Virus record (IMG/VR): IMGVR_UViG_3300010354_000785
Coordinates: 1-21,821 of that record
Strand: one strand, 5' to 3'
DNA: 21,821 bases
Source: a virus
Shown here: positions 8,483-21,821 of the stretch, one piece after another
How the letters are laid out: the number at the start of each line of letters is the position of its first letter
Numbering within the stretch: position 1 is the first letter of the stretch
The notes under the pieces: model-generated
Told to the model about the DNA's origin: nothing
The model's input: only the letters and a program-made list of their open reading frames with translations
The model's database searches: none
Position numbers and translations under genes: made by a program

Positions 8483-9410
8483 AGAAGATTTACCAATTGA
8501 TGATGAATCAAACGATGATCTAATAAATGAAGACCAAACACAAGACACAGACCAAGAGGAAGAACAAGGAAAGCCATTAAGTAAAATCGAGCAAATTGCA
8601 GCAAATAGAGAAAGGCAACTTTTAGAAGAGTTTGGGGAAGATAAAAAAGAAGAACCAGTTCCAGCCAAACAAAAAGTTAAGGTCAAGATTGACGGCAAGG
8701 AAGAGGAAAAAGATTTAGATGACATTGTAAGCACATATCAGAAATCCGTAGCGGCTGATAGGCGATTACAAGAGGCTTCTGAAAAGCAAAAGCAACTTGA
8801 ACAAGAATGGTATCTTTTACAACAAGCCAAAAGTGAATGGGAGAAGGAAAGGAATAAACCATTAGTTGATGAGAAGGAACAGGGAAAAGCTGAAGTAATA
8901 CCTATTGACGAGCTAAAGCTGAGACGGCGAGAAGCTATGGAAATAGGTGATTATGAAGAATTTGATAGATTAGACGAAGAAATCGCCAATCTAAGGTATA
9001 AACCATCAAAGGAAATTGATGAGGATAAGATTAAGCAAGAGGCTTCACAAACAGCATTAGATAAGATTGCTTATAATGATGCTTATGAAAAATTTAAGTC
9101 TTCTAACGAAGATTTATTAACTGATAGAGTTTTATATCAAGTAACTTCTGATACTTTTAATCAGATAGTTACACAATCTAAAAGCTATCAGGAAGCTTTT
9201 GATACTACAGCTAAGCTTGTTAGAGAATGGGTTAATGGCCTTACTCCGCAAAAACAAGAAGAAACAATGGCTGATAGGGTAGAAAAGAAAAAATCTATCC
9301 CAAATGAACCGGGACGATTAAACGTAAAGAATACATTACAGCCAGAAAAGGAAGAAACGCCTTCTGATGTAATAAGAAATATGAGGAAAGCCAGAGGGCT
9401 TCCTGTTTAA
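8475..9410 (+). CDS. Capsid scaffolding protein
   Basis: 311-aa, highly charged and almost wholly helical/coiled-coil protein immediately before the major capsid gene, the standard scaffold position. Residues 1-60 are a strongly acidic disordered tail (Asp/Glu/Gln runs). Residues about 65-115 hold the segment KVKVKIDGKEEEKDLDDI followed by STYQKSVAADRRLQEA, as seen in podophage scaffolds. A long Glu/Lys/Gln coiled coil follows to about 190. The C-terminus is basic (MRKARGLPV) and could contact the capsid floor. No protease motif is visible, so cleavage by an internal protease is not suggested. Assembles the prohead, then leaves. Confidence 0.75.
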   Translation: MNEEDLPIDDESNDDLINEDQTQDTDQEEEQGKPLSKIEQIAANRERQLLEEFGEDKKEEPVPAKQKVKVKIDGKEEEKDLDDIVSTYQKSVAADRRLQEASEKQKQLEQEWYLLQQAKSEWEKERNKPLVDEKEQGKAEVIPIDELKLRRREAMEIGDYEEFDRLDEEIANLRYKPSKEIDEDKIKQEASQTALDKIAYNDAYEKFKSSNEDLLTDRVLYQVTSDTFNQIVTQSKSYQEAFDTTAKLVREWVNGLTPQKQEETMADRVEKKKSIPNEPGRLNVKNTLQPEKEETPSDVIRNMRKARGLPV

Positions 9411-9413
9411 TTA

Positions 9414-9432
9414 AATTATTGTCGAGAGACGA
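9414..9432 (+). promoter_or_regulatory. Leader element with GNRA-type stem-loop before the capsid gene
   Basis: AATTATTGTCGAGAGAC (9414-9430) contains a small stem-loop: TTGTC (9419-9423), loop GAGA (9424-9427), GACGA (9428-9432), with one G-U pair. GAGA is a GNRA tetraloop. The same 17-nt sequence with one change recurs at 15096-15112. It lies 26 nt before the capsid ATG; a separate SD, TGGAG, is at 9447-9451. Confidence 0.5.
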
Positions 9433-9458
9433 AATATTCCCTTTGATGGAGTTTTATT

Positions 9459-10403
9459 ATGGCAAGTCAATTATGGGGCGTTAATACGCTCGGCGGGTAC
9501 ATGTACTCGCTTAATCTCAGTAAAGAATTGCGAATGGCTTTACAGCCGCTCGTTAAATTTCGTCAATTTTGTGACGCTAAAGACGCTACTCAACAAGGGT
9601 TGAACAAAGGCGATACATTCCACTGGAACGTATATTCCGATGTTGCAACTCAAGGTACTACATTGGCTGAAACCGATGTTATGCCGGAGACCAATTTTAC
9701 CATCGCTCAAGGTAGTTTAACCATTACTGAAATGGGTAATAGCGTTCCTTACACCGGTAAACTGGATAATTTGAGTGAACATCCAGTTAAAGAAATTATT
9801 AACAAAGTTCTAAAGAACGATGCTAAGAAAGCCTTTGATATTGCTGCTCACGCTCAATTTAATGCAACGCCTTTGTATGTGGCTCCCACTGGGGGAACAT
9901 CCACCACGGCGGTCACGTTGACTACTAACGGCGCTACTGCAACAACCAATAACGTTGCAATGGGTAAGGATCACGTTAAAGCTATTGTCGATATTATGAA
10001 GGAAAGAAATATTCCTCCATATCAGGGCGACGATTATATGTCTGCTGCTCATCCAACAACTTTCCGCACGTTTAAAAATGATCTGGAATCAGTTCATCAG
10101 TATGTTGATGCTGGCTTTCAAATGATCCTGAATGGCGAAATTGGTCGATATGAGTCGGTACGCTTTATCGAGCAAACAAATATTGCCAAAGAAACATGGA
10201 CTAATGCTAAATCAAACTGGGCCTTTTTCTTCGGTGAAGATACCGTTGCCGAAGCAATTGCTGTTCCTGAAGAAATGCGCGGTAAAATTCCAACTGATTA
10301 CGGTCGGTCTAAAGGTATCGCTTGGTATTACCTGGGCGGTTTTGGCTTAGTGCATACTCAAGCTGCACAAGCTCGTATTATTAAATGGGCTTCGGCTGCT
10401 TAA
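9459..10403 (+). CDS. Major capsid protein, N4-gp56 family
   Basis: 314-aa HK97-fold-type capsid subunit. Diagnostic features: N-terminal LWGVNTLGGYMYSLNLSKEL, then FRQFCDAKDATQQGLNKGDT, an E-loop-like stretch with TLAETDVMPETNFTIAQGSL and TITEMGNSVPYTGKLDNLSE, a long backbone helix (NKVLKNDAKKAFDIAAHAQF), and YQGDDYMSAAHPTTFRTFKN before the C-terminal GEIGRYESVRFIEQTNIAKE. This pattern matches the N4-gp56 capsid family. The start has a TGGAG Shine-Dalgarno 7 nt upstream, among the best in the window, as expected for the most abundant virion protein. It follows the scaffold and is followed by a likely companion protein at 10415. Confidence 0.9.
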   Translation: MASQLWGVNTLGGYMYSLNLSKELRMALQPLVKFRQFCDAKDATQQGLNKGDTFHWNVYSDVATQGTTLAETDVMPETNFTIAQGSLTITEMGNSVPYTGKLDNLSEHPVKEIINKVLKNDAKKAFDIAAHAQFNATPLYVAPTGGTSTTAVTLTTNGATATTNNVAMGKDHVKAIVDIMKERNIPPYQGDDYMSAAHPTTFRTFKNDLESVHQYVDAGFQMILNGEIGRYESVRFIEQTNIAKETWTNAKSNWAFFFGEDTVAEAIAVPEEMRGKIPTDYGRSKGIAWYYLGGFGLVHTQAAQARIIKWASAA

Positions 10404-10414
10404 GGAGAATTATC

Positions 10415-10813
10415 ATGGCTTATGATGTAAGAGAAAGACGAACTTATCATGTTAGAGCAAATGATTTTGGTGGTGCTGCTGATACTACCACTAAAGTTAT
10501 CGGCCCTTCCGGTAAAAAAGGTGTAGTTACTGGTGTTTGGATTGACCACGTTACCGAAACATTTGTCGGCACTACTACTGGAGGAGGCGTTTATGTTGGA
10601 TTGAGTGGAGATACAGATGCTTACTTTAAATCCAACCTGACCACGTTACAAGGCTCTGCTCCTGCTGTTGGGGTTCCTGCTGAATTGGCGGATACTTTGA
10701 CAGGGTACAATGAAATTCCGGCTGATACAGTGGTATTTATTACCTGTATCGCTACTGTCGGAGGCACTGTAACTGGCATTGCAGACGTCACTGTAACAAT
10801 TGATTGGTATTAA
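10415..10813 (+). CDS. Capsid-associated virion protein (possible decoration/head protein, 132 aa)
   Basis: Start chosen at ATG 10415 because AAGGAG (10402-10407) lies 7 nt upstream; the longer in-frame reading into the capsid gene is not supported. The protein is beta-rich with many Gly/Thr/Val: VRERRTYHVRANDFGGAADT, KKGVVTGVWIDHVTETFVG, and GTVTGIADVTVTIDWY at the C-terminus. This resembles an all-beta surface subunit. Location directly after the capsid gene and the strong RBS suggest a high-copy head protein such as decoration or cement protein, but no family is recognised. A terminator follows. Confidence 0.65.
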   Translation: MAYDVRERRTYHVRANDFGGAADTTTKVIGPSGKKGVVTGVWIDHVTETFVGTTTGGGVYVGLSGDTDAYFKSNLTTLQGSAPAVGVPAELADTLTGYNEIPADTVVFITCIATVGGTVTGIADVTVTIDWY

Positions 10814-10825
10814 TCTAAATAGAGG

Positions 10826-10851
10826 AAGGGCAGTGTAAAAGCTGCCCTTTT
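10826..10851 (+). terminator. Intrinsic terminator after the capsid genes
   Basis: 8-bp stem AAGGGCAG (10826-10833) / CTGCCCTT (10842-10849) with an 8-nt loop TGTAAAAG, and a short T run (10848-10851). It lies 12 nt after the stop at 10813 and 4 nt before the ATG at 10856. The T-tract is short, so partial read-through is plausible. Confidence 0.75.
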
Positions 10852-10855
10852 CGTT

Positions 10856-11038
10856 ATGAAAGAAATTAAAAGTAAGATTATATCAGACAAATGTTATGGC
10901 GCAACCAAACAAGAATTGCGTCAAGGCTATTCATCTCAAACAATCAAAAGTGACGAAGAAGATTATTTTGACGAATGGGATGAAAAACAGAAATATAAAA
11001 AAATCGGCTTTGGCCGATCTACTGGACATGACCGATGA
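10856..11038 (+). CDS. Small protein of unknown function (60 aa)
   Basis: Charged 60-aa protein (MKEIKSKIISDKCYGATKQE, then EEDYFDEWDEKQKYKK and GFGRSTGHDR). The ATG lies 4 nt after the terminator hairpin, with no free Shine-Dalgarno, as at 3602. The stop overlaps the next ATG (ATGA). No domain is recognised; the alternation of acidic and basic clusters suggests a small interaction protein. Confidence 0.5.
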   Translation: MKEIKSKIISDKCYGATKQELRQGYSSQTIKSDEEDYFDEWDEKQKYKKIGFGRSTGHDR

Positions 11039-11211
11039 AGAATCAAGAAGTGAGAGGCGATACTTCGCCTATTAATGATAAAGGTAAATCCAAAGAAGGC
11101 GAATTCGGCAAATCTTTGGGTGAGGCTTCCAGTTCAGATTTAGACAAAGGGTTTTATGGGCAGACCAAGATTACATCCGATACCAAAAGCGACAACAACG
11201 GTTTTGCTTGA
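11035..11211 (+). CDS. Small polar protein (58 aa)
   Basis: ATG 11035 overlaps the previous stop. The protein is polar and low in hydrophobics (MKNQEVRGDTSPINDKGKSK, then GEFGKSLGEASSSDLDKG), likely disordered. Its 3' end overlaps the next gene by 56 nt in another frame. Such overlap is larger than elsewhere in the window, so either this frame or the start of the next gene may be misread. No family is recognised. Confidence 0.45.
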   Translation: MKNQEVRGDTSPINDKGKSKEGEFGKSLGEASSSDLDKGFYGQTKITSDTKSDNNGFA

Positions 11212-11347
11212 TAAAGATCGTTCTTATGGAACTATTTTTGGCGATTCTATTGCTGTATATGAGCAAGACGGATTGTTATTTGATGCACATGGAGTTTTGA
11301 TAGATGAATCTGAGCGAGATAGTGACAGCGGCGAGGCAGAGACTTGA
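11156..11347 (+). CDS. Small phage protein with GRPR N-terminus (63 aa)
   Basis: Starts MGRPRLHPIPKATTTVLLDK, with an AAAGGG Shine-Dalgarno just upstream (about 11145-11151). The body (SYGTIFGDSIAVYEQDGLLF, DAHGVLIDESE) has alternating hydrophobics typical of a small beta fold. The C-terminus is acidic. It overlaps the adaptor gene by 44 nt. Function unknown; location between capsid and adaptor genes suggests a virion or assembly factor. Confidence 0.55.
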   Translation: MGRPRLHPIPKATTTVLLDKDRSYGTIFGDSIAVYEQDGLLFDAHGVLIDESERDSDSGEAET

Positions 11348-11939
11348 GGATGAAACACAGCCTTATTTATTCTCAACTTCCCGTTTAGAATACTGGGCTA
11401 ATGAAGCCAACATAGAGGCTTGTCGTAGAAGTCGATATTTGGTTGATAATACTCAATCTGTTTCATTAGTCACAGGGGTATCAGATTACGATAATCCTGA
11501 TAATATAATCTTTATAAAAAGAGGCAAGCTTTCTACGGAAGACTTGCCTTTATTTATATGTAGCTATAAGGACATGGATGAGATACCAGGGTGGGAAACT
11601 CATACAGGTACGCCAACTCATTTAATATTGGATATGAGCTTTGATAAATTTAAGGTTTATCCAACTCCAGATTCATCATATACATTGAATCTAATCACTA
11701 TCAACGAGCCTGAATTATTAACTAATGATATAAACGTTCCAGCACGATTCGGTTATTCTTATGTTGATTGGATTTGTTTTAGAGCGTATCAAACTAAAGA
11801 TGTAGAAACTTTTGATAAGGCATTATCTTTAGAATGTTTAGCTCATTTTGAAAATGAATTTGGAACAAGAAGTTCAGCTAAAGATGAAATATATAATTTT
11901 AGGAATCGACCGTTAAATGGTTTTGACGGAGATTTTTAA
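11304..11939 (+). CDS. Head-tail adaptor (connector) protein
   Basis: 211-aa protein resembling P22 gp4 / T7 gp11-type adaptors that seal the portal and dock the tail. N-terminal helices MNLSEIVTAARQRLEDETQP and FSTSRLEYWANEANIEACRR match the common adaptor opening (xIVxxARxRLxD...LxxYxNEAxxEACRR). A beta middle follows (SLVTGVSDYDNPDNIIFIKR; FDKFKVYPTPDSSYTLNLIT), then a C-terminal helical pair around YVDWICFRAYQTKDVETFDK. GGAG (11291-11294) lies 9 nt before the ATG. Position after the head genes supports the call; exact family membership would need a profile search. Confidence 0.7.
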   Translation: MNLSEIVTAARQRLEDETQPYLFSTSRLEYWANEANIEACRRSRYLVDNTQSVSLVTGVSDYDNPDNIIFIKRGKLSTEDLPLFICSYKDMDEIPGWETHTGTPTHLILDMSFDKFKVYPTPDSSYTLNLITINEPELLTNDINVPARFGYSYVDWICFRAYQTKDVETFDKALSLECLAHFENEFGTRSSAKDEIYNFRNRPLNGFDGDF

Positions 11940-12268: not shown

Positions 12269-12363
12269 TGGGTTATTTAATTACAGCATCGATCATATTT
12301 GTCATTTATAGTGTATTTAATTTCTTTTATACTGAAAAGATACATAGGTTTTTTGACGAATGA
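12268..12363 (+). CDS. 31-residue single-span membrane peptide (possible lysis partner)
   Basis: Sequence MGYLITASIIFVIYSVFNFF followed by YTEKIHRFFDE. Residues 3-21 are a continuous membrane span; the tail is short and charged. Its ATG overlaps the previous stop by one base (TAATG) and its stop overlaps the fibre gene start (ATGA). An open frame that exactly bridges two genes and encodes a clean membrane helix is unlikely to be chance. Family not recognised. Inference: a second component of the holin system with the gene before it. Confidence 0.55.
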   Translation: MGYLITASIIFVIYSVFNFFYTEKIHRFFDE

Positions 12364-15089
12364 CAACATGGTATATCGATCCTGCTAACGGTACAGATTC
12401 TAATTCCAGCGCAGGGAATGGCGATAGTTTTGCGACCAGAAGAAAGTCATTAACTAATTTGACAGCGGCTTCATTAGTTGCTGGTGATACTGTTAAATTT
12501 ATTAAAAGCTCTAACGCTACATCATTAGGGATCAATGGAACATGGACTAAAGGCCCGATCCCATCATCCGTTAGTATCACATCATCGACTAATGCGACGC
12601 CGATTGTCATTACGTTATCATCCGGCAATTATACAACGTTAAATCCTTCGGCGGGCGATACTGTAGTTATTGCAAGCCATACGACCAACACTAAAGCCAA
12701 TGGCGTATGGAAAATTAGTGCTGTCAATGGATCAACTACGGTCACAATTGTTAATGCTGATGGGACTAATTCAGTAGGCAATGGTGTTGGTGGCGCTACC
12801 GGAACTATTACTAAAATCAATGCTTCTACTGTCAAGCTGGCATCTCCGTTAGTACAAAATATTGCTTGTCATGGCAACAGAGGCGCATTAACCAATTGGA
12901 CGGCCTCAGCAAACGTAACTTGTACAATCGATTCCACCAACTATAAAGAAGGTGGTGAATCGCAAACAATAGCCATCGGCGCTTCATTTACGACTGGCAA
13001 AGCCGCGTATTTAACGTTATCTACTCTTGATTTGTCAGCTTACAAGCAAGTTTCTTTCTGGCTTCGCTGGAACTCTGGTACGGCTTTAGTTTCCGGTGAT
13101 ATGGAACTTAGACTTTGTTCTGATACAACCGGAGATACTGTTGTCAATACGATTGCTATACCACCATTACAATCCAATGCGGCCTGGGCTTGTATCACAG
13201 TTGATAAAGCGGCTGCTTTAGGTTCAGCTATTCAATCTATTTCGCTTTATGTCAACGTGGATCGTGGGGCGCAATCGTTAAATTTGGATTGTATTACGGC
13301 TTGCAAGGATTCAACAAGCAACGATTCGTTATCTCTTAGCAGTCTTATTGGGAAATCATCTGGGAATTATTATGGAATCCAATCTATCAATTATGATCGT
13401 GTTATTCTCGATACTCACGTTAATGCAAAGCCTATCGTCGGCCAAATTACGGGATATTATGGAACGAGCGAAACGGTTACGACGTATAAGCGAGAATGTT
13501 TTAAATACGCGGCAGCATTAGGGTTAACAACTCAGGTGATGAATTTTAATGACAGTGGAACGTCAGGAAGCCCGATAACCATATCAGGTGGTTGGAATGA
13601 TACGGACATGACTACGCAAACTGGAGAGACTTGGTTTGACGGGATCAATGGTAATGGTTATTTGTTTTATGGAAACAATATAAGTTATTGGTCAGGATTC
13701 GGGAATCTTGCCGCCGTTCGTTATTATGCTCCAGCTTATTTTGGAAGTGCATCGAATGTAACTGCATCATTTCGAGCTTTAAACAATAATACTTTATACG
13801 GCATTAACGCAACAAGTGCACAAAATGTTACTCTTGGAGCTGATTACATAGAGAATAATTTATCTGGCGTGTTATCTGGAATCATTAATACTATTACGGC
13901 AGGACAAGTTAACAATAACGTCAATTATGGAGTGTTAGTTCAACAAGGGTCATGCAAGTTTAATCTCGATAGCTGTTGCAATAATTTAAGTTATGGAGCA
14001 TACATTAATACCAATGTAGGCGGAGATGCGGTTTTAAATATCGATCTTTGCAAAGATAACGGAACATCAAATTATAACTTTGATACCGTCGGCGGATGCG
14101 TTATTAATAACTCTGTTATGGGGGGTTCTGCTCCTATCGATATTACATTAACCACAATGTATGGGTATGACGTTATTGCCAATCGTTGTACGTTTGCGGC
14201 AGCAACAGAAGTATCTGTCACAGCAACGTATATTGATTCCAGATTGTATGTTAATAGTCGAAATCTTGACAATAACGATCATAGAATATATTTGCCTAAT
14301 GCTAATATAAAAACAGATACCGGCGTTGTCTATGGAACTAATCCTTATTCGTGGAAGCTATCGCCTACATCTACAACGTATCAGAATGAAAATAATCCTA
14401 CTGTTTTTTCATTAGGTAAATTTACTTGCTACGCTAATGTGGCTACAACATTCAAGGCACAATTCAGACGAACTAATACCGGCATTTCTGCTCAATTAGT
14501 TTGTGAAGGTGGACAAATCAATGGCGTCGATAATGACGTTACTGATTCCATGACTGCCGCACAGGATACATGGGAAGAATTAAGCATTAGTTTTACGCCA
14601 ACGGAAACGAAAACAGTAGAAATATTAGCTAAAGCCTGGGGCGGGACAACTTATAGCGTTTATGTTGATGACTGGTATCAAACATCAGGAACTATATCTG
14701 GAAATATTACTGAATCGTTAGACATTACGGACTGGATGGTTACAGCTTATAAATGTAGTAATGGCGAATATAACGGTCATACTTATACCAATGGTACGAA
14801 TTATTCTATTAATGTACTACACTTAGAGCCAAGCCATATAACGCTTTCGCCACGAATACATTATCGTTGGTCAGCCAGTAAAGTGTCAACATTAAATGAT
14901 TTTGTTGTCGCTACTGTTCCTGATACAACGCCACATATTTGGAAATGTACAACGGCCGGAACAACGGGGGGCAGTGAGCCAACCTGGAATCTATCAGGAA
15001 CAACAACAGATAATACAACAACCTGGACTTATATTGCGCCTTTAGTCGATCCAAAAACATTAGGGCCAAAAATACCAGTAGCTTTATAG
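12360..15089 (+). CDS. Tail fibre/spike protein with beta-helix and carbohydrate-binding-like domains
   Basis: 909-aa, beta-rich, Thr/Ser/Asn/Gly-rich protein, the largest in the window. Residues 1-60 are a conserved head domain (TTWYIDPANGTDSNSSAGNG, then ATRRKSLTNL), of the type found at the N-terminus of right-handed beta-helix proteins. Residues about 165-310 look like a jelly-roll module (NWTASANVTCTIDSTNYKEG ... YKQVSFWLRWNSGT). About 440-640 is a right-handed beta-helix-like stretch of short Asn-rich rungs (e.g. YIENNLSGVLSGIINTITAG). About 690-790 is a second jelly roll ending YSVYVDDWYQ. Residues 861-889 carry a short motif with EPTW and TTTW shared with the protein at 18726. Predicted role: receptor binding or surface-polysaccharide contact. 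No catalytic residues can be named. Confidence 0.7.
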   Translation: MTTWYIDPANGTDSNSSAGNGDSFATRRKSLTNLTAASLVAGDTVKFIKSSNATSLGINGTWTKGPIPSSVSITSSTNATPIVITLSSGNYTTLNPSAGDTVVIASHTTNTKANGVWKISAVNGSTTVTIVNADGTNSVGNGVGGATGTITKINASTVKLASPLVQNIACHGNRGALTNWTASANVTCTIDSTNYKEGGESQTIAIGASFTTGKAAYLTLSTLDLSAYKQVSFWLRWNSGTALVSGDMELRLCSDTTGDTVVNTIAIPPLQSNAAWACITVDKAAALGSAIQSISLYVNVDRGAQSLNLDCITACKDSTSNDSLSLSSLIGKSSGNYYGIQSINYDRVILDTHVNAKPIVGQITGYYGTSETVTTYKRECFKYAAALGLTTQVMNFNDSGTSGSPITISGGWNDTDMTTQTGETWFDGINGNGYLFYGNNISYWSGFGNLAAVRYYAPAYFGSASNVTASFRALNNNTLYGINATSAQNVTLGADYIENNLSGVLSGIINTITAGQVNNNVNYGVLVQQGSCKFNLDSCCNNLSYGAYINTNVGGDAVLNIDLCKDNGTSNYNFDTVGGCVINNSVMGGSAPIDITLTTMYGYDVIANRCTFAAATEVSVTATYIDSRLYVNSRNLDNNDHRIYLPNANIKTDTGVVYGTNPYSWKLSPTSTTYQNENNPTVFSLGKFTCYANVATTFKAQFRRTNTGISAQLVCEGGQINGVDNDVTDSMTAAQDTWEELSISFTPTETKTVEILAKAWGGTTYSVYVDDWYQTSGTISGNITESLDITDWMVTAYKCSNGEYNGHTYTNGTNYSINVLHLEPSHITLSPRIHYRWSASKVSTLNDFVVATVPDTTPHIWKCTTAGTTGGSEPTWNLSGTTTDNTTTWTYIAPLVDPKTLGPKIPVAL

Positions 15090-15117: not shown

Positions 15118-15534
15118 ATGGCAAATGCAATTTATCCTTTGTGGAAGGAAGCTTTATTACAAAACAGTGCTGATTCTGATCTTGATGGTTCTGGAACTAC
15201 GGGGATTTATGTCGCCTTGGTAGATACCGGAACTTATACTTATTCATCTTCACATCAATACTATTCTTCTGTATCTTCTGCTGTTATAGGAACGGATCAA
15301 GAGCTTGGTACAAAATCTTATACCAATGGCGCATTTGACTCGGCTGATAGCACCTTTACTTCGGTAACAGGTAACTCAGTAGAAGCTTTAGTATTTTACC
15401 GTAAAAATTCTGGCGCTAATACAACATGGCGTTTAGTTGCCTATATTGATACAAACGTAACTAATCTTCCAGTTACTCCAAATGGTGGTAATATTACATT
15501 AGCCTGGAATGCTTCAGGTATTTTTGCACTTTAA
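15118..15534 (+). CDS. Phage virion structural protein (138 aa)
   Basis: Starts MANAIYPLWKEALLQNSADS, followed by TGIYVALVDTGTYTYSSSHQ, YTNGAFDSADSTFTSVTGNS and VEALVFYRKN. This pattern (MANAIYPLxKxALL...VALVDTGTYTYS...VEALVxF) is common among small virion proteins encoded near tail fibres in many phages; the molecular role is not established. All-beta, no charge clusters. Good RBS inside the leader stem-loop. It lies between the fibre gene and the P-loop gene. Confidence 0.7.
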   Translation: MANAIYPLWKEALLQNSADSDLDGSGTTGIYVALVDTGTYTYSSSHQYYSSVSSAVIGTDQELGTKSYTNGAFDSADSTFTSVTGNSVEALVFYRKNSGANTTWRLVAYIDTNVTNLPVTPNGGNITLAWNASGIFAL

Positions 15535-15551
15535 TTGATAGGATTTTAATT

Positions 15552-15869
15552 ATGATTTTTATTATTGAAGGGCCAGCGAAAAGCGGCAAAACAACACTGG
15601 CAAATGCCTTAAGAAACAGTCAAATTTCTCAAAAGAAGGGTTGTTTGCTAGTGGACGAGGATCAAGACGGTGATTTAGATATTTTGCTTGAAAAGATTAT
15701 TGTTGGTGAAAAATTGGGAGATAAACCTGATGTAGCCAAAATTCCTTGGAAACCTGAATCTATGATTGTTTTTGTTAATGCAAAACAAAGCTTGTTAAAA
15801 GACATAGAAACTAGAGTGCCAGGAATTATTGAACTTTTAGGCCCAGTTAAAAAAGTTACTGTTAGCTAA
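15552..15869 (+). CDS. Small P-loop NTP-binding protein in the virion gene cluster
   Basis: 105-aa protein with an intact Walker A motif, GPAKSGKTT (residues 7-15, preceded by MIFIIE), and a Walker B-like strand CLLVDED (31-37). Another strand, MIVFVN, is at 71-76. It is shorter than typical nucleotide kinases, with no visible lid or substrate-binding region. Predicted to bind ATP or GTP; activity is unknown. AGGA (15540-15543) precedes the ATG by 8 nt, and the stop overlaps the next gene (TAATG), so it is expressed with structural genes. It could be an assembly factor, a small kinase, or act on the host cell. Confidence 0.7.
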   Translation: MIFIIEGPAKSGKTTLANALRNSQISQKKGCLLVDEDQDGDLDILLEKIIVGEKLGDKPDVAKIPWKPESMIVFVNAKQSLLKDIETRVPGIIELLGPVKKVTVS

Positions 15870-16726
15870 TGAGCCTACTTTCTAGCAAACCTAATTTTAA
15901 TTATACAGAGACGAATAACAGCGTCGGCGTTGCATCTGGTGACCAAGCCGGAACTGCCGTTACTTCCGGTTCTGCCAATGCCTATGGATCATGGACTCAA
16001 ATTCATGCCGGATTAACTTATAAGAGTTCTGTTGTTGTCGTTAGGATTAACTCGGTAGAAACATCTGCGGATGTTACGGCGGCAACTGTTTTAAATGCTT
16101 ATATAGACATAGGTATTGGCCCAGATAGTAGTAATGTGACTGTTATTCTTGAAAAGCTTGGTGGTAGTTTCGCAGGTGGATTAGGAAATAGTTTTTATAT
16201 ACCTGTTAGCTTTCCTCAAGATACTCCTATTTGGGCTAGGCATCAAAATACACAAGCATCTGCTAAATCAGGGGTAGAGGTTACATTTTTTGGTGGTGGC
16301 GGGAATGGTTATTTTTTCCCGTCATTTTCAAGAATGGTGGCTATAGGTGCAGTTACCACGTCAACAACAGGGGCTTCATTATCTACCATAGGTAACTCGG
16401 GTGCCGAAGGCGGATGGGTAGAAATCACAAGTAGCTCTAGTGACGATTATTCAGTTTTAATGTTATCACCAGTATTTAACGTCGATTCTAGTTTAACAAA
16501 TGGATTAATACAAACTTTTGATATAGGGATCGGTGGAAGCGGTTCTGAAATTTCAATCGGAGAAAATGTCATGCAATCGTTTTTATGGACGGGCGCAGAG
16601 CAAAGAGTCAGTATTTCTTATCCCGTTTATCGAACAATTCCATCAGGAACAAGGATCGTTTGCAGAGGGAGTGGAAGCACGACAAACGATGGAACAAATA
16701 GTATTCTTTTGTATGGGATTATGTAA
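15869..16726 (+). CDS. Virion structural protein with a tandemly duplicated beta domain (285 aa)
   Basis: Two related halves, residues about 20-142 and 157-283. Each has a W-containing opening strand (SWTQIHAGLT / GWVEITSSSS), the motif DIGIG (80-84 and 218-222), then a strand with proline before a bulge (IPVSFPQDTPIWAR / YPVYRTIPSGTRIV), and a closing hydrophobic strand (VEVTFFG / SILLYGI). Such jelly-roll-like units are frequent in phage surface proteins. No enzyme motif. It starts in a TAATG overlap with the P-loop gene and is coupled the same way to the next gene. Confidence 0.6.
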   Translation: MSLLSSKPNFNYTETNNSVGVASGDQAGTAVTSGSANAYGSWTQIHAGLTYKSSVVVVRINSVETSADVTAATVLNAYIDIGIGPDSSNVTVILEKLGGSFAGGLGNSFYIPVSFPQDTPIWARHQNTQASAKSGVEVTFFGGGGNGYFFPSFSRMVAIGAVTTSTTGASLSTIGNSGAEGGWVEITSSSSDDYSVLMLSPVFNVDSSLTNGLIQTFDIGIGGSGSEISIGENVMQSFLWTGAEQRVSISYPVYRTIPSGTRIVCRGSGSTTNDGTNSILLYGIM

Positions 16727-17070
16727 TGGCTATATCAGAACACGCAAGCGGGACTAGAACGGCAGGAACCCCGCCAGAGGCTAGTTTTACAGCACTAGGA
16801 ACTTCGGCGGATACGACGGACGGCGTATTCCAGTTTTTCATTGATTGCAATAACATGGCTAATGGCGACACGCTAGAAATACAATTGCTTGAAAAGGCTT
16901 TGTCGTCTGGGACTGCAAGAGTTCTTTTTGAAGCCGCATTAAGCAATGCTCAATCTGAGCCATTATGGGCTTCTCCATCATTTGTATTATTGCACGGATG
17001 GACGTTTCAAATACGTCAAACGGCTGGCACGGCTAGGTCTTACGATTGGTCACAGCGTAAGGTTGCCTAA
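16726..17070 (+). CDS. Small beta-rich virion protein (114 aa)
   Basis: Contains the recognisable sequence of a widespread small phage protein: DGVFQFFIDCNNMANGDTLE, then IQLLEKALSSGTARVLFEAA and FQIRQTAGTARSYDWSQRKV at the C-terminus. The pattern (DGxFxFxIDxNNMxxGDTLExxL...QTAGTxRxYDW) accompanies head or tail surface proteins in many phages; role not defined. Coupled on both sides by TAATG overlaps. Confidence 0.6.
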   Translation: MAISEHASGTRTAGTPPEASFTALGTSADTTDGVFQFFIDCNNMANGDTLEIQLLEKALSSGTARVLFEAALSNAQSEPLWASPSFVLLHGWTFQIRQTAGTARSYDWSQRKVA

Positions 17071-18722
17071 TGTCTTATTTGTATTCTCCATTATTACCTT
17101 CTGCGGCTTCTGGAGATTCGGCGCAAGCATTAACGCAATCCAGTATTTTTACCAATACTAATACTTTTTACACTCACACATTAAACGGAGCTATCACTTT
17201 AACACAAGATAGCTCATTATCTAATTCCAATACGTTTAATGCACATACATTAACCAATGTTAATGCGTTAAGTCAAGATAGTTCTTATTCAAACTCTAAT
17301 ACATTTAACACGCATGCTTTAAGTAGTGCAATAACGCTTACTCAAAGTAATGTTTATGAAAACTCAAGTACATTTAATGCGCATGTATTAACTAATCTTA
17401 ATACTCTAACTCAAGATAGCGCATATACAAACTCTAATACTTTTAATAATCACAGTATTTCTTTAGTTAATAACTTATCTCAGGATAATTTATTTTCCAA
17501 TACTAATACGTTTAATGATCATACATTAACGGCGGGCGCTGTATCTTTAACACAAGATACTACGTTAAGTAATAGCAATACTTTTTATAATCATAGCTTA
17601 TCTGGGAATAACATATTAACTCAGGATAGTATTTATTCCAATAATAATACTTTTAATACGCATGTATTATCTAATATAAATACCTTAAGTCAGAATAGTA
17701 TTTATAATAATAGCAATACTTTTTACGAGCACTCTTTAAGTGGTGTTATTACATTAACTCAGGACAATGGTTATTCTAATACAAATACTTTTTATACTCA
17801 TACTTTATCAACTGCTGCAAATGATTTAGTTCAAAATCAAACACTTACTAACGATAATACGTTTTATGCTCATTCTTTAAGTGCAAGTATTAGTTTATCT
17901 CAAGATGCAAGTTATACTAATACTAATACTTTTAATGCTCATATATTAACTAACTTAAATACTTTAACTCAGGATAGTGCTTATACTAATAATAATACTA
18001 TCTATGATAGTGTTTTAAGTTCTGCAATAACGCTAACTCAAGATAGCTCATATACTAATACTAATAGCTTTTATACTCATGTATTAACTGCTGGTTCTGC
18101 TGGCGTAGATTTTACGATTACATCTGGATATACTACTGGAACTGATTTCAGCTTTGGAAGTATTTATGACTTAATTCAAAACGCTATATTCACAAATAGC
18201 AATACTTTTTATAGTCATACTTTATCGAGTCCATCAGTATTAACTCAAGATAGTATTTTTAATAATACTAATAGTTTTAATAATCATAGCTTATTATCGA
18301 CTATTAGCCTTATTCAAGATTCTACTTTAACAAATAACAATACTTTTTATCAGCATAGCATTGATAATGTACAATCATTAACCCAAGATTCCAGTTTTGT
18401 TAATAGCAATACTTTTTACTCTGCTACTCTTGATCGTGATATTACATTAACTCAGTCGCAGTTTATTGAAAATCTTAATAGCTTCTATCAACATGTTCTT
18501 ACACCAGAAGCTATTAATTTAACTCAGACTTCACTATTTGTTAATGAAAATGTATTTTATCAAGCTGTAATAAGTAGTAATATTAACTATACTACTATTG
18601 TTTTTGAGCATAAAAATAATGTATTATATGCTGAATATCCAAATTATTCTGTTATAATAGAGAATAAGAATAAAACTATTTTTAACGAAAATAAACAAAA
18701 AGACATAATCGTTGAGGCTTAA
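17070..18722 (+). CDS. Repeat-built fibre-like protein: about 20 copies of a 23-24-residue Asn/Thr repeat
   Basis: 550-aa protein made almost wholly of one repeat with consensus L-[ST]-Q-D-S-x-[YFL]-[ST]-N-[ST]-N-T-F-[YN]-x-H-[TSV]-L-[ST], about 20 copies from residue 21 to about 503. One copy near residue 345 carries an insert (TAGSAGVDFTITSGYTTGTD). There is no Lys or Arg before R456. The C-terminal about 45 residues differ: YTTIVFEHKNNVLYAEYPNY, then a Lys/Asn/Glu tail. A short N-terminal cap (about 20 residues) precedes the repeats. Repeats with [ST]Q...NTF occur in other phage structural proteins as far as I can recall; function is unknown. Inference: a beta-solenoid or repetitive fibre on the virion surface. 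Coupled by TAATG to the gene before it. Confidence 0.65.
   Translation: MSYLYSPLLPSAASGDSAQALTQSSIFTNTNTFYTHTLNGAITLTQDSSLSNSNTFNAHTLTNVNALSQDSSYSNSNTFNTHALSSAITLTQSNVYENSSTFNAHVLTNLNTLTQDSAYTNSNTFNNHSISLVNNLSQDNLFSNTNTFNDHTLTAGAVSLTQDTTLSNSNTFYNHSLSGNNILTQDSIYSNNNTFNTHVLSNINTLSQNSIYNNSNTFYEHSLSGVITLTQDNGYSNTNTFYTHTLSTAANDLVQNQTLTNDNTFYAHSLSASISLSQDASYTNTNTFNAHILTNLNTLTQDSAYTNNNTIYDSVLSSAITLTQDSSYTNTNSFYTHVLTAGSAGVDFTITSGYTTGTDFSFGSIYDLIQNAIFTNSNTFYSHTLSSPSVLTQDSIFNNTNSFNNHSLLSTISLIQDSTLTNNNTFYQHSIDNVQSLTQDSSFVNSNTFYSATLDRDITLTQSQFIENLNSFYQHVLTPEAINLTQTSLFVNENVFYQAVISSNINYTTIVFEHKNNVLYAEYPNYSVIIENKNKTIFNENKQKDIIVEA
17130..18578 (+). repeat. Degenerate tandem coding repeat, about 69-72 bp unit
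   Basis: The repeat is visible at protein level in all copies; at DNA level copies have diverged by synonymous and other changes, though stretches such as AATACTTTTTATAATCATAG recur in variant form. The unit contains runs of AATACTAATACT. This is a coding repeat, not a CRISPR array: no constant-length spacers. Confidence 0.8.
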
Positions 18723-18725
18723 TTA

Positions 18726-19262
18726 ATGATTTATAGTGCAAGTCAAAAAGGCCCGTATAAAGTATCAGGTTATCATGATCCTGATTCTATAGTTTCGTAT
18801 CAGATAATATTTAGACCGCCTACCTGGACATCTGGTACAGTCTATAGGTTTGTTAATTCAAACGAATATGATATTGTTTTACCATCAGTTTATAAAGGAT
18901 ATTATTATGCTTGTGTTAATGGAGGTAAATCTGGAGCTACTGAGCCAACATGGGCACTAAGAAAAGATGAGGAAACAACAGATTTTGAATCCGGTGCTAC
19001 AGATGGACTAACATGGAAAGCTGTCCCTTATAATCTTTTGCCTGTTGATGTTGATGTTTCGAGTGTGGCAATAACTGCTAATAATGGAGTCACAATAAGC
19101 TCTGATTCTAATACAGCAATAAAAGCATTTTATACTGTTGATAATATAGCAACTAATGCTACAGCAAGAACTTTAAAATACTTTGATGTTTTGATTAGAC
19201 CAACTTATAATAATAATTTAATGGATGATTTTTCTGTACGATATAAACTAGCGGAACGCTAA
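18726..19262 (+). CDS. Virion/tail-associated protein with EPTW motif (178 aa)
   Basis: Begins MIYSASQKGPYKVSGYHDPD. Residues about 58-100 hold the motif YYYACVNGGKSGATEPTWAL followed by TDGLTWKAV, a short module also present at the C-terminus of the 909-aa fibre. Residues about 105-178 form an all-beta domain (DVDVSSVAITANNGVTISSD; RTLKYFDVLIRPTYNNNLMD). GAGG in the end of the preceding gene can serve as RBS. Role unknown; likely part of the same surface assembly as its neighbours. Confidence 0.6.
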   Translation: MIYSASQKGPYKVSGYHDPDSIVSYQIIFRPPTWTSGTVYRFVNSNEYDIVLPSVYKGYYYACVNGGKSGATEPTWALRKDEETTDFESGATDGLTWKAVPYNLLPVDVDVSSVAITANNGVTISSDSNTAIKAFYTVDNIATNATARTLKYFDVLIRPTYNNNLMDDFSVRYKLAER

Positions 19263-19301
19263 TTTTAGGCTATAATTTTTTTATTATTTGAGGGTATTAA
19301 A

Positions 19302-19619
19302 ATGTTTGAATTACATGAAGGCAAAAAAAGAACGCTCACTTTGAATGTTGCTAAATCCGATGGTAATCCTGGTGTTGTTGATGGCATTCCAGAATGGACT
19401 GTAGAACCTGCTGATTTGGCTTCTCTTACAGTAGCGGAAGATGGTATGTCGGCGGTTATGGATTGGGTAGCTGCTGGTGATGTAACTGTTATGGTAACGG
19501 CTGATGGCGATCTTAGTAATGATGTTTTCACCATTGTTGCTCAGGAAACATTTACGATGATGCCGTCTTTGGGTGCTGTATCAGCTACAATTTCTGTTTC
19601 TGACGAAGAGCCAGTCTAA
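19302..19619 (+). CDS. Ig-like (BIG2-type) phage surface protein (105 aa)
   Basis: Single bacterial Ig-like domain: KKRTLTLNVAKSDGNPGVVD, then IPEWTVEPADLASLTVAEDG, MSAVMDWVAAGDVTVMVTAD and GDLSNDVFTIVAQE. The order GxPxWxxxPxxLxxLTVAxDGMSAxxxxxxxGxVxVxVxADGDL is typical of the small phage Ig-like proteins that decorate heads or tails and bind weakly to cell-surface sugars. GAGGG (19290-19294) lies 7 nt before the ATG. Coupled to the next gene (TAATG). Confidence 0.7.
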   Translation: MFELHEGKKRTLTLNVAKSDGNPGVVDGIPEWTVEPADLASLTVAEDGMSAVMDWVAAGDVTVMVTADGDLSNDVFTIVAQETFTMMPSLGAVSATISVSDEEPV

Positions 19620-19969
19620 TGGTTATTAACGAATTTATAGCAGAATTAGAATCTGCTTTAAGTTTTGAACAGGCTAGGATTAAGGGTTATTTGGGAGTTT
19701 TAACATTCCCGAACAACCTTGTTAGTGATCCATCAAAACAGGAAATACAACAAGCTTTAGATTGGTCTGTAAAGCGTAATGCTTTATTGGAAAGCGCATT
19801 AACTCCAGTCAAAGCTTTATTGGATCATGGGTATCCTAAAAGAGTAGAACAGCTTGCGCCTGAGTCTGTTATCGATGAACTTAAAGAAGCACTAAGATTA
19901 TTAACTCTGTCGGTTGATGAATTACATGAACCGCCTGTTTTAAATATAGAAGTATCGGAAGAGGCGTAA
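19619..19969 (+). CDS. Hypothetical helical phage protein (116 aa)
   Basis: Amphipathic helical protein: MVINEFIAELESALSFEQAR, then KQEIQQALDWSVKRNALLES and a helix DELKEALRLLTLSVDELHEP. It differs from its beta-rich neighbours, so may be an assembly factor or chaperone rather than a surface subunit; this is inference. It starts at a TAATG overlap. No family is recognised. Confidence 0.6.
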   Translation: MVINEFIAELESALSFEQARIKGYLGVLTFPNNLVSDPSKQEIQQALDWSVKRNALLESALTPVKALLDHGYPKRVEQLAPESVIDELKEALRLLTLSVDELHEPPVLNIEVSEEA

Positions 19970-19982
19970 AGCCTTATTTTAA

Positions 19983-20037
19983 TGCCGTGAGGCAATTGTT
20001 TTTTTTTGCGATGTGAATCGCTTTATCTCTTCGAGAG
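19983..20037 (+). promoter_or_regulatory. Three short stem-loops in the leader of the 20047 gene
   Basis: Stem-loop 1: TGCC-GTGA-GGCA (19983-19994). After a T9 run (19999-20007), stem-loop 2: GCGAT-GTGA-ATCGC (20008-20021). Stem-loop 3: CTCT-TCG-AGAG (20027-20037), overlapping the Shine-Dalgarno GAGAGGA (20033-20039). Loops 1 and 2 are both GTGA, a GNRA tetraloop. Stem 1 plus T9 could also act as a weak terminator for the preceding genes. Confidence 0.45.
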
Positions 20038-20046
20038 GATTTTAAA

Positions 20047-20673
20047 ATGGCATACGTCAATTCATTTGCCGATGATGTATTAGGCAGACCAACATCTCAA
20101 ACTGTAACCAGTGTTGGCACAGTCGCTACTCCATCGTCTGGAACCATTACCGCAACTCATAAAGCAGGTGGTGGTCTTGTTGGATATTCTACTTTTACTC
20201 TGACCAGCGTTTTACAAAACGTTGTCAACGGTACTGAGTATCAAGGTACTAAAATCTGGACTTTCCCTTCCGGGATTACTGCAAGAGTTTTGCAAGCGTA
20301 TATCAATATCGCGCAAAAAACCACAAGCGATCTTGCGACAACTTTGAACGCTAGTTCTACAGGCGCTATTGCTTTAGGTACTGCTACAGCCTCGAGTACA
20401 ACTTTAAGTAGCACGATGGCTAACTTGGTAGCTTCGACTGCATTTACATCGTCCGCAACGATTAACGTGGCTGGCACGGCTGTAGAAGGATATTTTGACT
20501 CTAACTTAGATGGTTCGGAAACATTGTTTTTGGATACTACTTCGTCGGATACGTCAATTTATCTGAATACGGCTTATGCGACTACTACCGATGTAGATGC
20601 GGATGCAACGCAAACGCTAACTGGCACTATTACGCTTACTTGGCTTCTCTGCAAAACGATTAGAGCCTTGTAA
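20047..20673 (+). CDS. Virion structural protein (208 aa)
   Basis: Thr/Ser/Ala-rich beta protein: MAYVNSFADDVLGRPTSQTV, then VNGTEYQGTKIWTFPSGITA, RVLQAYINIAQKTTSDLATT, VEGYFDSNLDGSETLFLDTT and the C-terminal DVDADATQTLTGTITLTWLL. Few charged residues. The ending (DVDADATxTLTGTIxLTW) recurs in phage minor head or tail proteins. It has one of the best Shine-Dalgarno sites here (GAGAGGA, 7-nt spacing), which predicts strong expression. Confidence 0.65.
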   Translation: MAYVNSFADDVLGRPTSQTVTSVGTVATPSSGTITATHKAGGGLVGYSTFTLTSVLQNVVNGTEYQGTKIWTFPSGITARVLQAYINIAQKTTSDLATTLNASSTGAIALGTATASSTTLSSTMANLVASTAFTSSATINVAGTAVEGYFDSNLDGSETLFLDTTSSDTSIYLNTAYATTTDVDADATQTLTGTITLTWLLCKTIRAL

Positions 20674-20675
20674 TT

Positions 20676-21821
20676 ATGGCTAACCCGGTGATTCGTTTCA
20701 CTGGGCTTAATAATCGACTAAGACCCAGTGAATTGCCAGTTAGGGATGGTCGAAAAGACTATGGCCGTCTATTCAAAGCTGTAAACGTACAGTTTGATAA
20801 TGACGGCCAAGCTTTATTGCCGTGCCAGAATCTTTCCCAAGTCTATGACGGGGATTGTCACTCTATCTTTGTCTGCAATTTCTGCACATTATTTGTAGAA
20901 AACGACAATCTTTATAAACTCGCTTCCCCTTCAAACGTTGAGCTATTAGCCGATATTGGCGCTACTCGTGTTTCTTATACTCAAGTTGGCGATACCATTT
21001 ACTTTTCCAACGGAATAATATCCGGTCGTTATGTAAAAGGCGATATTGTTGCTAAGGAATGGGGAGTCCCAACTCCAGACGCTCCTGATGTTGCGGCAAT
21101 TACTACAGGAGGCATGTTTGCCGGTGATTATCGAGTCGCTATTACCTGGATTGCTAATTGGGAATCTGGCGCAGGCAATAGTGTTAAGGTTACAGTGGCC
21201 GAGGGCGGAGGCATTAATCTTTCCAATTTTCCAATAGCACCAGATTACGTTACGCATTTTGCCGTTTGGTTGACTTCGGTCAATGGCAAGATATTATATT
21301 TTTATGACGAATATCCGATAGCTACTACATCCGTTAATTTGGTTAAATCCATTGGCGCTATACCTTTAGAGACTCAATTTGCTGAACCACCAGCCCCGGA
21401 AGCCGATGGCGTTTTATGTTATCACTACGGGCAAATCTATTATTCTGACGGGCCTTATCTTCGCTATACCCATATTGGCGCCAAAGGCCCAAATTACGGT
21501 CTGCAATTTCCTTTTAACTTCCTGCCTATTGATACTACAGATATACAGGTATTAATCAGTATGCCTAACGTTTTATATGTTGGCACTGATAAGGCCATCT
21601 ATCGCCTGATTAATATTAATGGCGATGGGCCACCAATACTTGAGCAAATGCTGGATTGTGCGGCTGTTAAAGGATCAGTAGTTTATGATCCTAATGGTAG
21701 TTCGGCCTATTTTATGTCGGATAGAGGAGTTTTATTAGTCACTGGCGACGGAATACAAGAGCTTACTTATAAAGATGTTGCCATGCCATTTTATTTAAGC
21801 GGTTCGTCAACAATTACTGAA
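20676..21821 (+). CDS. Tail-type virion protein, partial (at least 382 aa, C-terminus beyond window)
   Basis: Open from ATG 20676, 2 nt after the previous stop, to the window end (382 codons, no stop). N-terminus MANPVIRFTGLNNRLRPSEL with AVNVQFDNDGQALLPCQNLS and HSIFVCNFCTLFVENDNLYK, then repeated beta-propeller-like strands (TRVSYTQVGDTIYFSNGIIS; VLCYHYGQIYYSDGPYLRYT; SMPNVLYVGTDKAIYRLINI). The opening FxGLNNRxxPxxLP...NVxxDxxGxL matches a common podophage tail or stopper-type structural protein. The repeated YxxVGDxIYFSN / GQIYYSD strands suggest a propeller fold. Exact role in tail or injection is uncertain. Confidence 0.65.
   Translation, partial: MANPVIRFTGLNNRLRPSELPVRDGRKDYGRLFKAVNVQFDNDGQALLPCQNLSQVYDGDCHSIFVCNFCTLFVENDNLYKLASPSNVELLADIGATRVSYTQVGDTIYFSNGIISGRYVKGDIVAKEWGVPTPDAPDVAAITTGGMFAGDYRVAITWIANWESGAGNSVKVTVAEGGGINLSNFPIAPDYVTHFAVWLTSVNGKILYFYDEYPIATTSVNLVKSIGAIPLETQFAEPPAPEADGVLCYHYGQIYYSDGPYLRYTHIGAKGPNYGLQFPFNFLPIDTTDIQVLISMPNVLYVGTDKAIYRLININGDGPPILEQMLDCAAVKGSVVYDPNGSSAYFMSDRGVLLVTGDGIQELTYKDVAMPFYLSGSSTITE

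Follow-up and report, generated by a model that had tools for sequence, protein, structure and literature searches.

A 23-residue repeat family encoded beside a tail wing arm homologue in tailed phages: a probable rod of a tail appendage

Introduction

Repeat-built rods are already known as components of phage tails, and several described systems come close to the locus considered here. The tail wing of mycobacteriophage Bxb1 consists of an arm (gp31), a brush (gp33) and a base, as described by the chain names of PDB 9d93 and by two papers citing it, in which gp33 is a wing brush with polyproline-II bundles (PMC13243192) and the wing base is linked to D-Ala-D-Ala carboxypeptidase domain proteins (PMC13148394). 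Phage SU10 carries trimeric fibres, namely the long tail fibres gp12 and gp13 and the short fibre gp16, whose genes lie, judging by their numbers, between those of the adaptor gp11 and the nozzle gp17 (PMC9509320). Recurring His residues are found in the HxH iron-binding fibres of T4 (gp37) and of alterophage R22Y (PMC11705849). Finally, the curli protein CsgA and the secreted adhesin EtpA are solenoids of short stacked coils, a fold also predicted for the repeats discussed below. Curli contain rows of Asn and Gln, as the predicted solenoid would.

The locus compared with these systems lies in the window, i.e., the whole stretch of viral DNA analysed, which is a complete virus record of 21,821 bases and represents a genome fragment (Table 1). 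It encodes a homologue of the Bxb1 wing arm together with a long repeat protein, which can be likened to the SU10 fibres by gene position, though not by sequence, and to the HxH fibres by its recurring His residues. The window protein differs from the latter in carrying one His per 23 residues, with all 18 isolated and no HxH motif anywhere in its sequence.

Table 1. Coordinates of the repeat gene, its parts and the surrounding cassette in the window
Feature	Position	Strand	Remarks
SU10-type adaptor protein, upstream cassette border	11304..11939	+	PF24175
909-aa cassette protein	12360..15089	+	11 further loci have homologues, 37-40% identical, close to the repeat gene
phrog_644 protein, Bxb1 gp31 homologue, found constantly upstream of repeat-family genes	15118..15534	+	
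Other cassette genes	15552..20673	+	starts 15552, 15869, 16726, 18726, 19302, 19619, 20047
550-aa repeat protein	17070..18722	+	one open frame, 550 codons (translation)
Short N-terminal segment ahead of the repeats, residues 1-20	17070..17129	+	
Array of 20 repeats, 23-24 aa each	17130..18590	+	consensus LTQDSxYxNxNTF[YN]xHxL
Degenerate His-free stretch inside the array, residues ~345-367	18102..18170	+	low model confidence
C-terminal tail with Lys, residues 508-550	18591..18719	+	
Hc3 head-closure protein, truncated at the window end; downstream cassette border	20676..21821	+	phrog_8040

Architecture of the repeat protein

An earlier note on this DNA had described a protein of twenty 23-24-residue repeats with a His in almost every one, and both descriptions are confirmed. 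Twenty repeat starts (L[TSIV]Q) run from residue 21 to residue 484 at spacings of 23 or 24, apart from a single 46-residue step that holds the degenerate stretch, and TRF detects the same array in the DNA with a period of 69 and a match of 67-74%. N, T and S are the dominant residues of the protein. Across the 20 repeats, L1, Q3 and N9 are present in all, N11 and F13 in 19, and H16 and L18 in 17, with T12 also among the kept positions. The single His outside this pattern aside, all His residues of the protein (17/18) occupy repeat position 16.

Over their first 18 positions, the repeats share a pairwise amino acid identity of 55%. At residues shared between repeats, codons agree in 65.5% of cases, compared with the 63.3% that the codon usage of the gene itself would predict, indicating near-saturation of silent sites at residues that have stayed. 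Thus, the array is neither a product of chance nor a recent duplication, and its repeats are old and constrained. This bears on the reading of the gene as encoding a protein foreign to the virion, or a disordered protein of low complexity that adopts no fold. The abundance of N, T and S would suit such a protein; however, the strictly kept alternating positions, whose silent sites are nearly saturated, the confident segment model and the tail gene context described below all argue against it, and we regard it as most improbable.

The better-conserved positions of the repeat are 1, 3, 7, 9, 11 and 13, followed by 16 and 18, and most of those in between vary. This pattern fits strands with one buried face and a kink near positions 14-15. 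Because conserved and variable positions alternate, it also suggests that the His at position 16 points inward.

Lys and Arg are confined to R456, K515, K533, K535, K542 and K544, with all five lysines falling within the last 36 residues. The translation therefore agrees with the earlier statement that no Lys or Arg precedes R456. The absence is real, but it does not set this protein apart, as Lys/Arg scarcity spans the whole repeat family: the two residues together make up 0 to 5.7% of the repeat-spanned stretches, and many members have none. The window protein does have the longest Lys/Arg-free run seen in the family, helped by the length of its array. The related prediction that trypsin-based proteomics would miss the protein was too strong. 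Two tryptic peptides, NNVLYAEYPNYSVIIENK (516-533) and TIFNENK, should still be released, so the protein would be sampled at its C-terminus only, and hence under-sampled, not missed. Digestion with Asp-N is predicted to yield 26 peptides, of which 21 are 7-35 residues long.

Distribution and variation of the repeat family

Sequence and repeat-profile searches across phages, the latter suggested in the earlier note, placed the repeats in many of them. Querying IMG/VR with the window protein (tblastn) returned 69 family loci, with E values down to 1e-44. The same approach matched gp68 of the cyanophage Pam2 (Pseudanabaena phage; 29.7% identity) in a phage collection, and a scan of bacterial genomes yielded one contig only, a prophage of Mesorhizobium Root157. 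A cleaner family member, used as query in its turn, gave weak matches to Microcystis phage Mwe-JY26 and to mycobacteriophage Brujita and its kin. A five-repeat profile scored 36.9 bits against XAI96042.1 of Mwe-JY26 (best shuffle 1.2) and 12.0 bits against Brujita gp24 (best shuffle 3.8); the Microcystis phage protein is a diverged form of the family, and the mycobacteriophage proteins probably are as well. The common form of the repeat is LxPxLFxNTNTFYxATVxxGxVx, in units of 22-24 aa, and the family profile, of which the window repeats are part, matches the window protein 21 times (E 2.7e-73). Pam2 gp68, XAI96042.1 and Brujita gp24 are of the same repeat class but lack the His row, and in the Brujita and Microcystis repeats SxA or DGD takes the place of the NxN seen in the window.

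Scans of the repeat protein against Pfam, PHROGs and NCBIfam gave either nothing or matches far below curated cut-offs. A PDB sequence search with the protein and the repeat profile found no matching chain, the solved Bxb1 wing proteins included; antibody chains (E 0.46 and 0.085) were dismissed as chance. A literature search for the motif NTNTF returned nothing concerning tailed phages, and the repeat gene was not found in the stretches compared from 80 MCP-relative loci. The family thus appears undescribed in the sources searched, as do its wing arm linkage and its His-lined form: the repeats occur in many unrelated tailed phages while being absent from the protein-family libraries scanned.

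Close relatives within the family differ in length by whole repeats. The proteins of L016, L017 and L020 (269 aa) are 96-98% identical to those of L035 or L034 save for one internal gap of exactly 23 residues, and those of L015 and L031 differ in length by exactly 46 residues while being 95.5% identical otherwise. One repeat is therefore a unit open to loss or gain in nature, as a rod would predict. Such a natural series of rods differing by whole coils would be useful for relating appendage length to adsorption.

The ends of the family proteins vary more freely in kind. N-terminally, they are short or carry a Laminin_G_3 lectin-like domain or other long N-domains, and C-terminally they bear several kinds of tail; in L052 (9251-12106), two repeat runs flank an M14 zinc carboxypeptidase domain (PF00246, E 7e-11). 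The N- and C-modules of the relatives had no matches in PHROGs. Tandem decapeptide tails of the form R[QRK][SN]MxVxELP follow the repeats at the C-termini of L009, L011, L013, L015 and L031, and L005, L041 and the protein of the Microcystis phage have similar tails. A like repeat, R[QR][SN]MxVxE, is an attractive reading of the C-terminal tail in the window protein, but shuffles gave p 0.09 and the repeat is not claimed.

His at position 16 is rare in the family. The only other His-type array found is in a 420-aa protein of L160 (11792-13054), which has His in 14/15 repeats and is 43% identical to the window protein in its best stretch; two degenerate-pattern scans for His-type units returned the L160 genome and one contig with a single unit (L042). 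These arrays bear on the proposal that the His stack binds iron or another metal, which would stiffen the rod or allow it to contact the metal-uptake receptors of the host, an idea put forward for the HxH fibres. Retention of the His row at nearly saturated silent sites and its recurrence in L160 would fit such a metal-binding rod, whereas the rarity of His in nearly all other members and the missing HxH motif do not, and one His per coil, if turned inward as suggested, would make a poor coordination site. We consider it quite unlikely. Metal binding, raised in the earlier note, is a weak candidate idea not supported so far, as the protein has no HxH motif, a His row was found in only two arrays and its His residues are suggested to point inward.

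Predicted fold

From a repeat-registered alignment, AlphaFold2 modelled ten repeats (residues 113-343) as a monomer with two strands per repeat, a pLDDT of 84.9 and a pTM of 0.81; the full-length model was weak (pLDDT 58.7). AlphaFold2 yields confident beta-solenoids even for random perfect repeats, a bias that may concern near-perfect repeats only (PMC11795689). Because the window repeats are only 55% identical, this worry is lessened, though not removed. With that caveat, prediction supports the regular solenoid proposed earlier, in the form of a two-strand beta-solenoid with one coil per repeat.

Structural alignment of the ten-repeat model with VIA-align gave Z scores of 14-18 against beta-helix proteins, including 18.2 for the EtpA adhesin (222 residues, 2.7 Å) and 17.6 for a SufBCD chain (194 residues, 2.5 Å). 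CsgA (8c50) scored Z 18.6 at an rmsd of 9.3 Å and is thus not a close fit; moreover, the window protein had no curlin match in the Pfam scan. Foldseek searches of the models returned no match at E <= 0.001 and, among viral models, no clear named match. Given such poor Foldseek E values, support extends to the fold class and to no particular relative.

The monomer solenoid would be an artefact if the protein instead formed a trimeric fibre, with three chains wound into a beta-structured shaft. Most phage fibres are trimers. The position of the repeat gene among SU10-type fibre genes and the bias of AlphaFold2 toward beta-solenoids (PMC11795689) also speak for three chains, but the ten-repeat model is confident as a monomer, a coil length of 23 suits two-strand solenoids, and no known trimerisation domain was matched in the window protein in Pfam, PHROGs or NCBIfam. 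On balance, a trimer appears unlikely.

The wing arm homologue and the cassette

Homologues of phrog_644 lie upstream of the repeat gene on the same strand in 47 loci, at distances of 4 bp to 5.2 kb, and are 52-74% identical where full length. Only three further loci with at least 4.8 kb of upstream sequence (L017, L026 and L035) lack one; here, the gene may have been cut off, since their group (L016/L020/L066) has it 4.0-5.2 kb away. The phrog_644 protein matches the chain named 'Tail wing arm, gp31' of Bxb1 in PDB 9d93, with E values of 1.1e-13 (profile) and 5.5e-9 (single sequence). In mycobacteriophages, phrog_644 is annotated as a minor tail protein, and a similar repeat gene, often with the same annotation, lies within ~2.3 kb of it. 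Examples of phrog_644 and the Brujita-type repeat gene, respectively, are found in Brujita (23116-23514 and 23533-23928), Dylan (40195-40593 and 40611-41000) and Oaker (31122-31337 and 29987-30343). Bxb1 itself differs in having no such repeats just downstream of gp31; thus, a wing does not require the rod. In L160, three consecutive Gly-rich proteins (8910-11784) are encoded between phrog_644 and the His-type repeat gene, and they resemble the glycine-rich brush gp33 of Bxb1.

The window also encodes an SU10-type portal (PF23899) and a major head protein, in addition to the adaptor and Hc3. The interval between the latter two spans 8.7 kb and ten genes, and most of those listed in Table 1 as other cassette genes (15552-20673) have no homologues among the loci compared. 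In L074 and L078, both close relatives, nothing separates the adaptor gene from that of Hc3. The window capsid protein shares 80% identity with its L074 counterpart and 57% with the one of Vibrio phage D65. L160 has the gene order adaptor, phrog_644, repeat gene and Hc3-like, where all labels but that of the repeat gene were assigned by reading.

The surroundings of the repeat gene could also point to a decoration of the head or neck, with rods standing on the capsid or connector instead of the tail. The gene directly downstream (18726-19262) has a short match to the head-decoration profile phrog_20658 (36 residues, E 4e-7), and the cassette sits in the head-tail connector region. The phrog_644 partner, however, has a homologue in the Bxb1 tail and is annotated as a minor tail protein in mycobacteriophages, which makes such a decoration very doubtful. 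Separately, a short CxxGGxSGxxEPTW-type motif with TW after it was noticed by reading in the 12360-15089 and 18726-19262 proteins.

Proposed role in the tail

We read the gene as encoding a tail-appendage shaft of beta-solenoid fold, partnered by the phrog_644 arm, at a rough probability of 0.6. This reading draws on the whole-repeat length gaps of 23 and 46 aa, on the joining of the repeats to unrelated end modules (Laminin_G_3, M14 peptidase, long N-domains and varied tails), and on the upstream phrog_644 gene with its match to the Bxb1 wing arm, including the mycobacteriophage repeat genes near it. The location of the cassette between the adaptor and Hc3 genes of both the window and L160, like that of the SU10 fibre genes, and the AlphaFold2 segment model with its EtpA and SufBCD alignments point the same way. 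Units present in tail genes of many unrelated phages, beside a relative of a tail-appendage protein, probably form a length-adjustable rod, whose likely place is an appendage beside the wing arm.

In such a virion component, each 23-residue repeat would make one coil of a two-strand beta-solenoid, packing the side chains of the conserved residues (L, Q, N, N, F, H and L) in inside rows and leaving the variable T/S/N/D residues outside, and rod length could be adjusted by one repeat per coil. As a spacer, the rod and the 'wing arm' protein would hold a host-binding or other end module off the tail, where SU10-type phages carry tail fibres. Against this shaft, other genes of the cassette could encode the fibre instead; the weak full-length model, the Foldseek result, the AlphaFold2 bias and the repeat-free Bxb1 wing also count against it.

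A bolder proposal, which we regard as a long shot, is that the repeats form a widespread, uncatalogued tail rod partnered with the tail wing arm and possessing a polar, His-lined core, in which uptake of protons or metal would switch stiffness or assembly. If true, the stiffness or assembly of the His-form rod would follow pH or metal supply.

Other genes of the window

At its start, the window encodes a polysaccharide lyase (338-2083; PF14099) with a fibronectin-III domain and an apparent signal peptide, which may be a secreted depolymerase. An M15 peptidase is encoded nearby (2512-2931).
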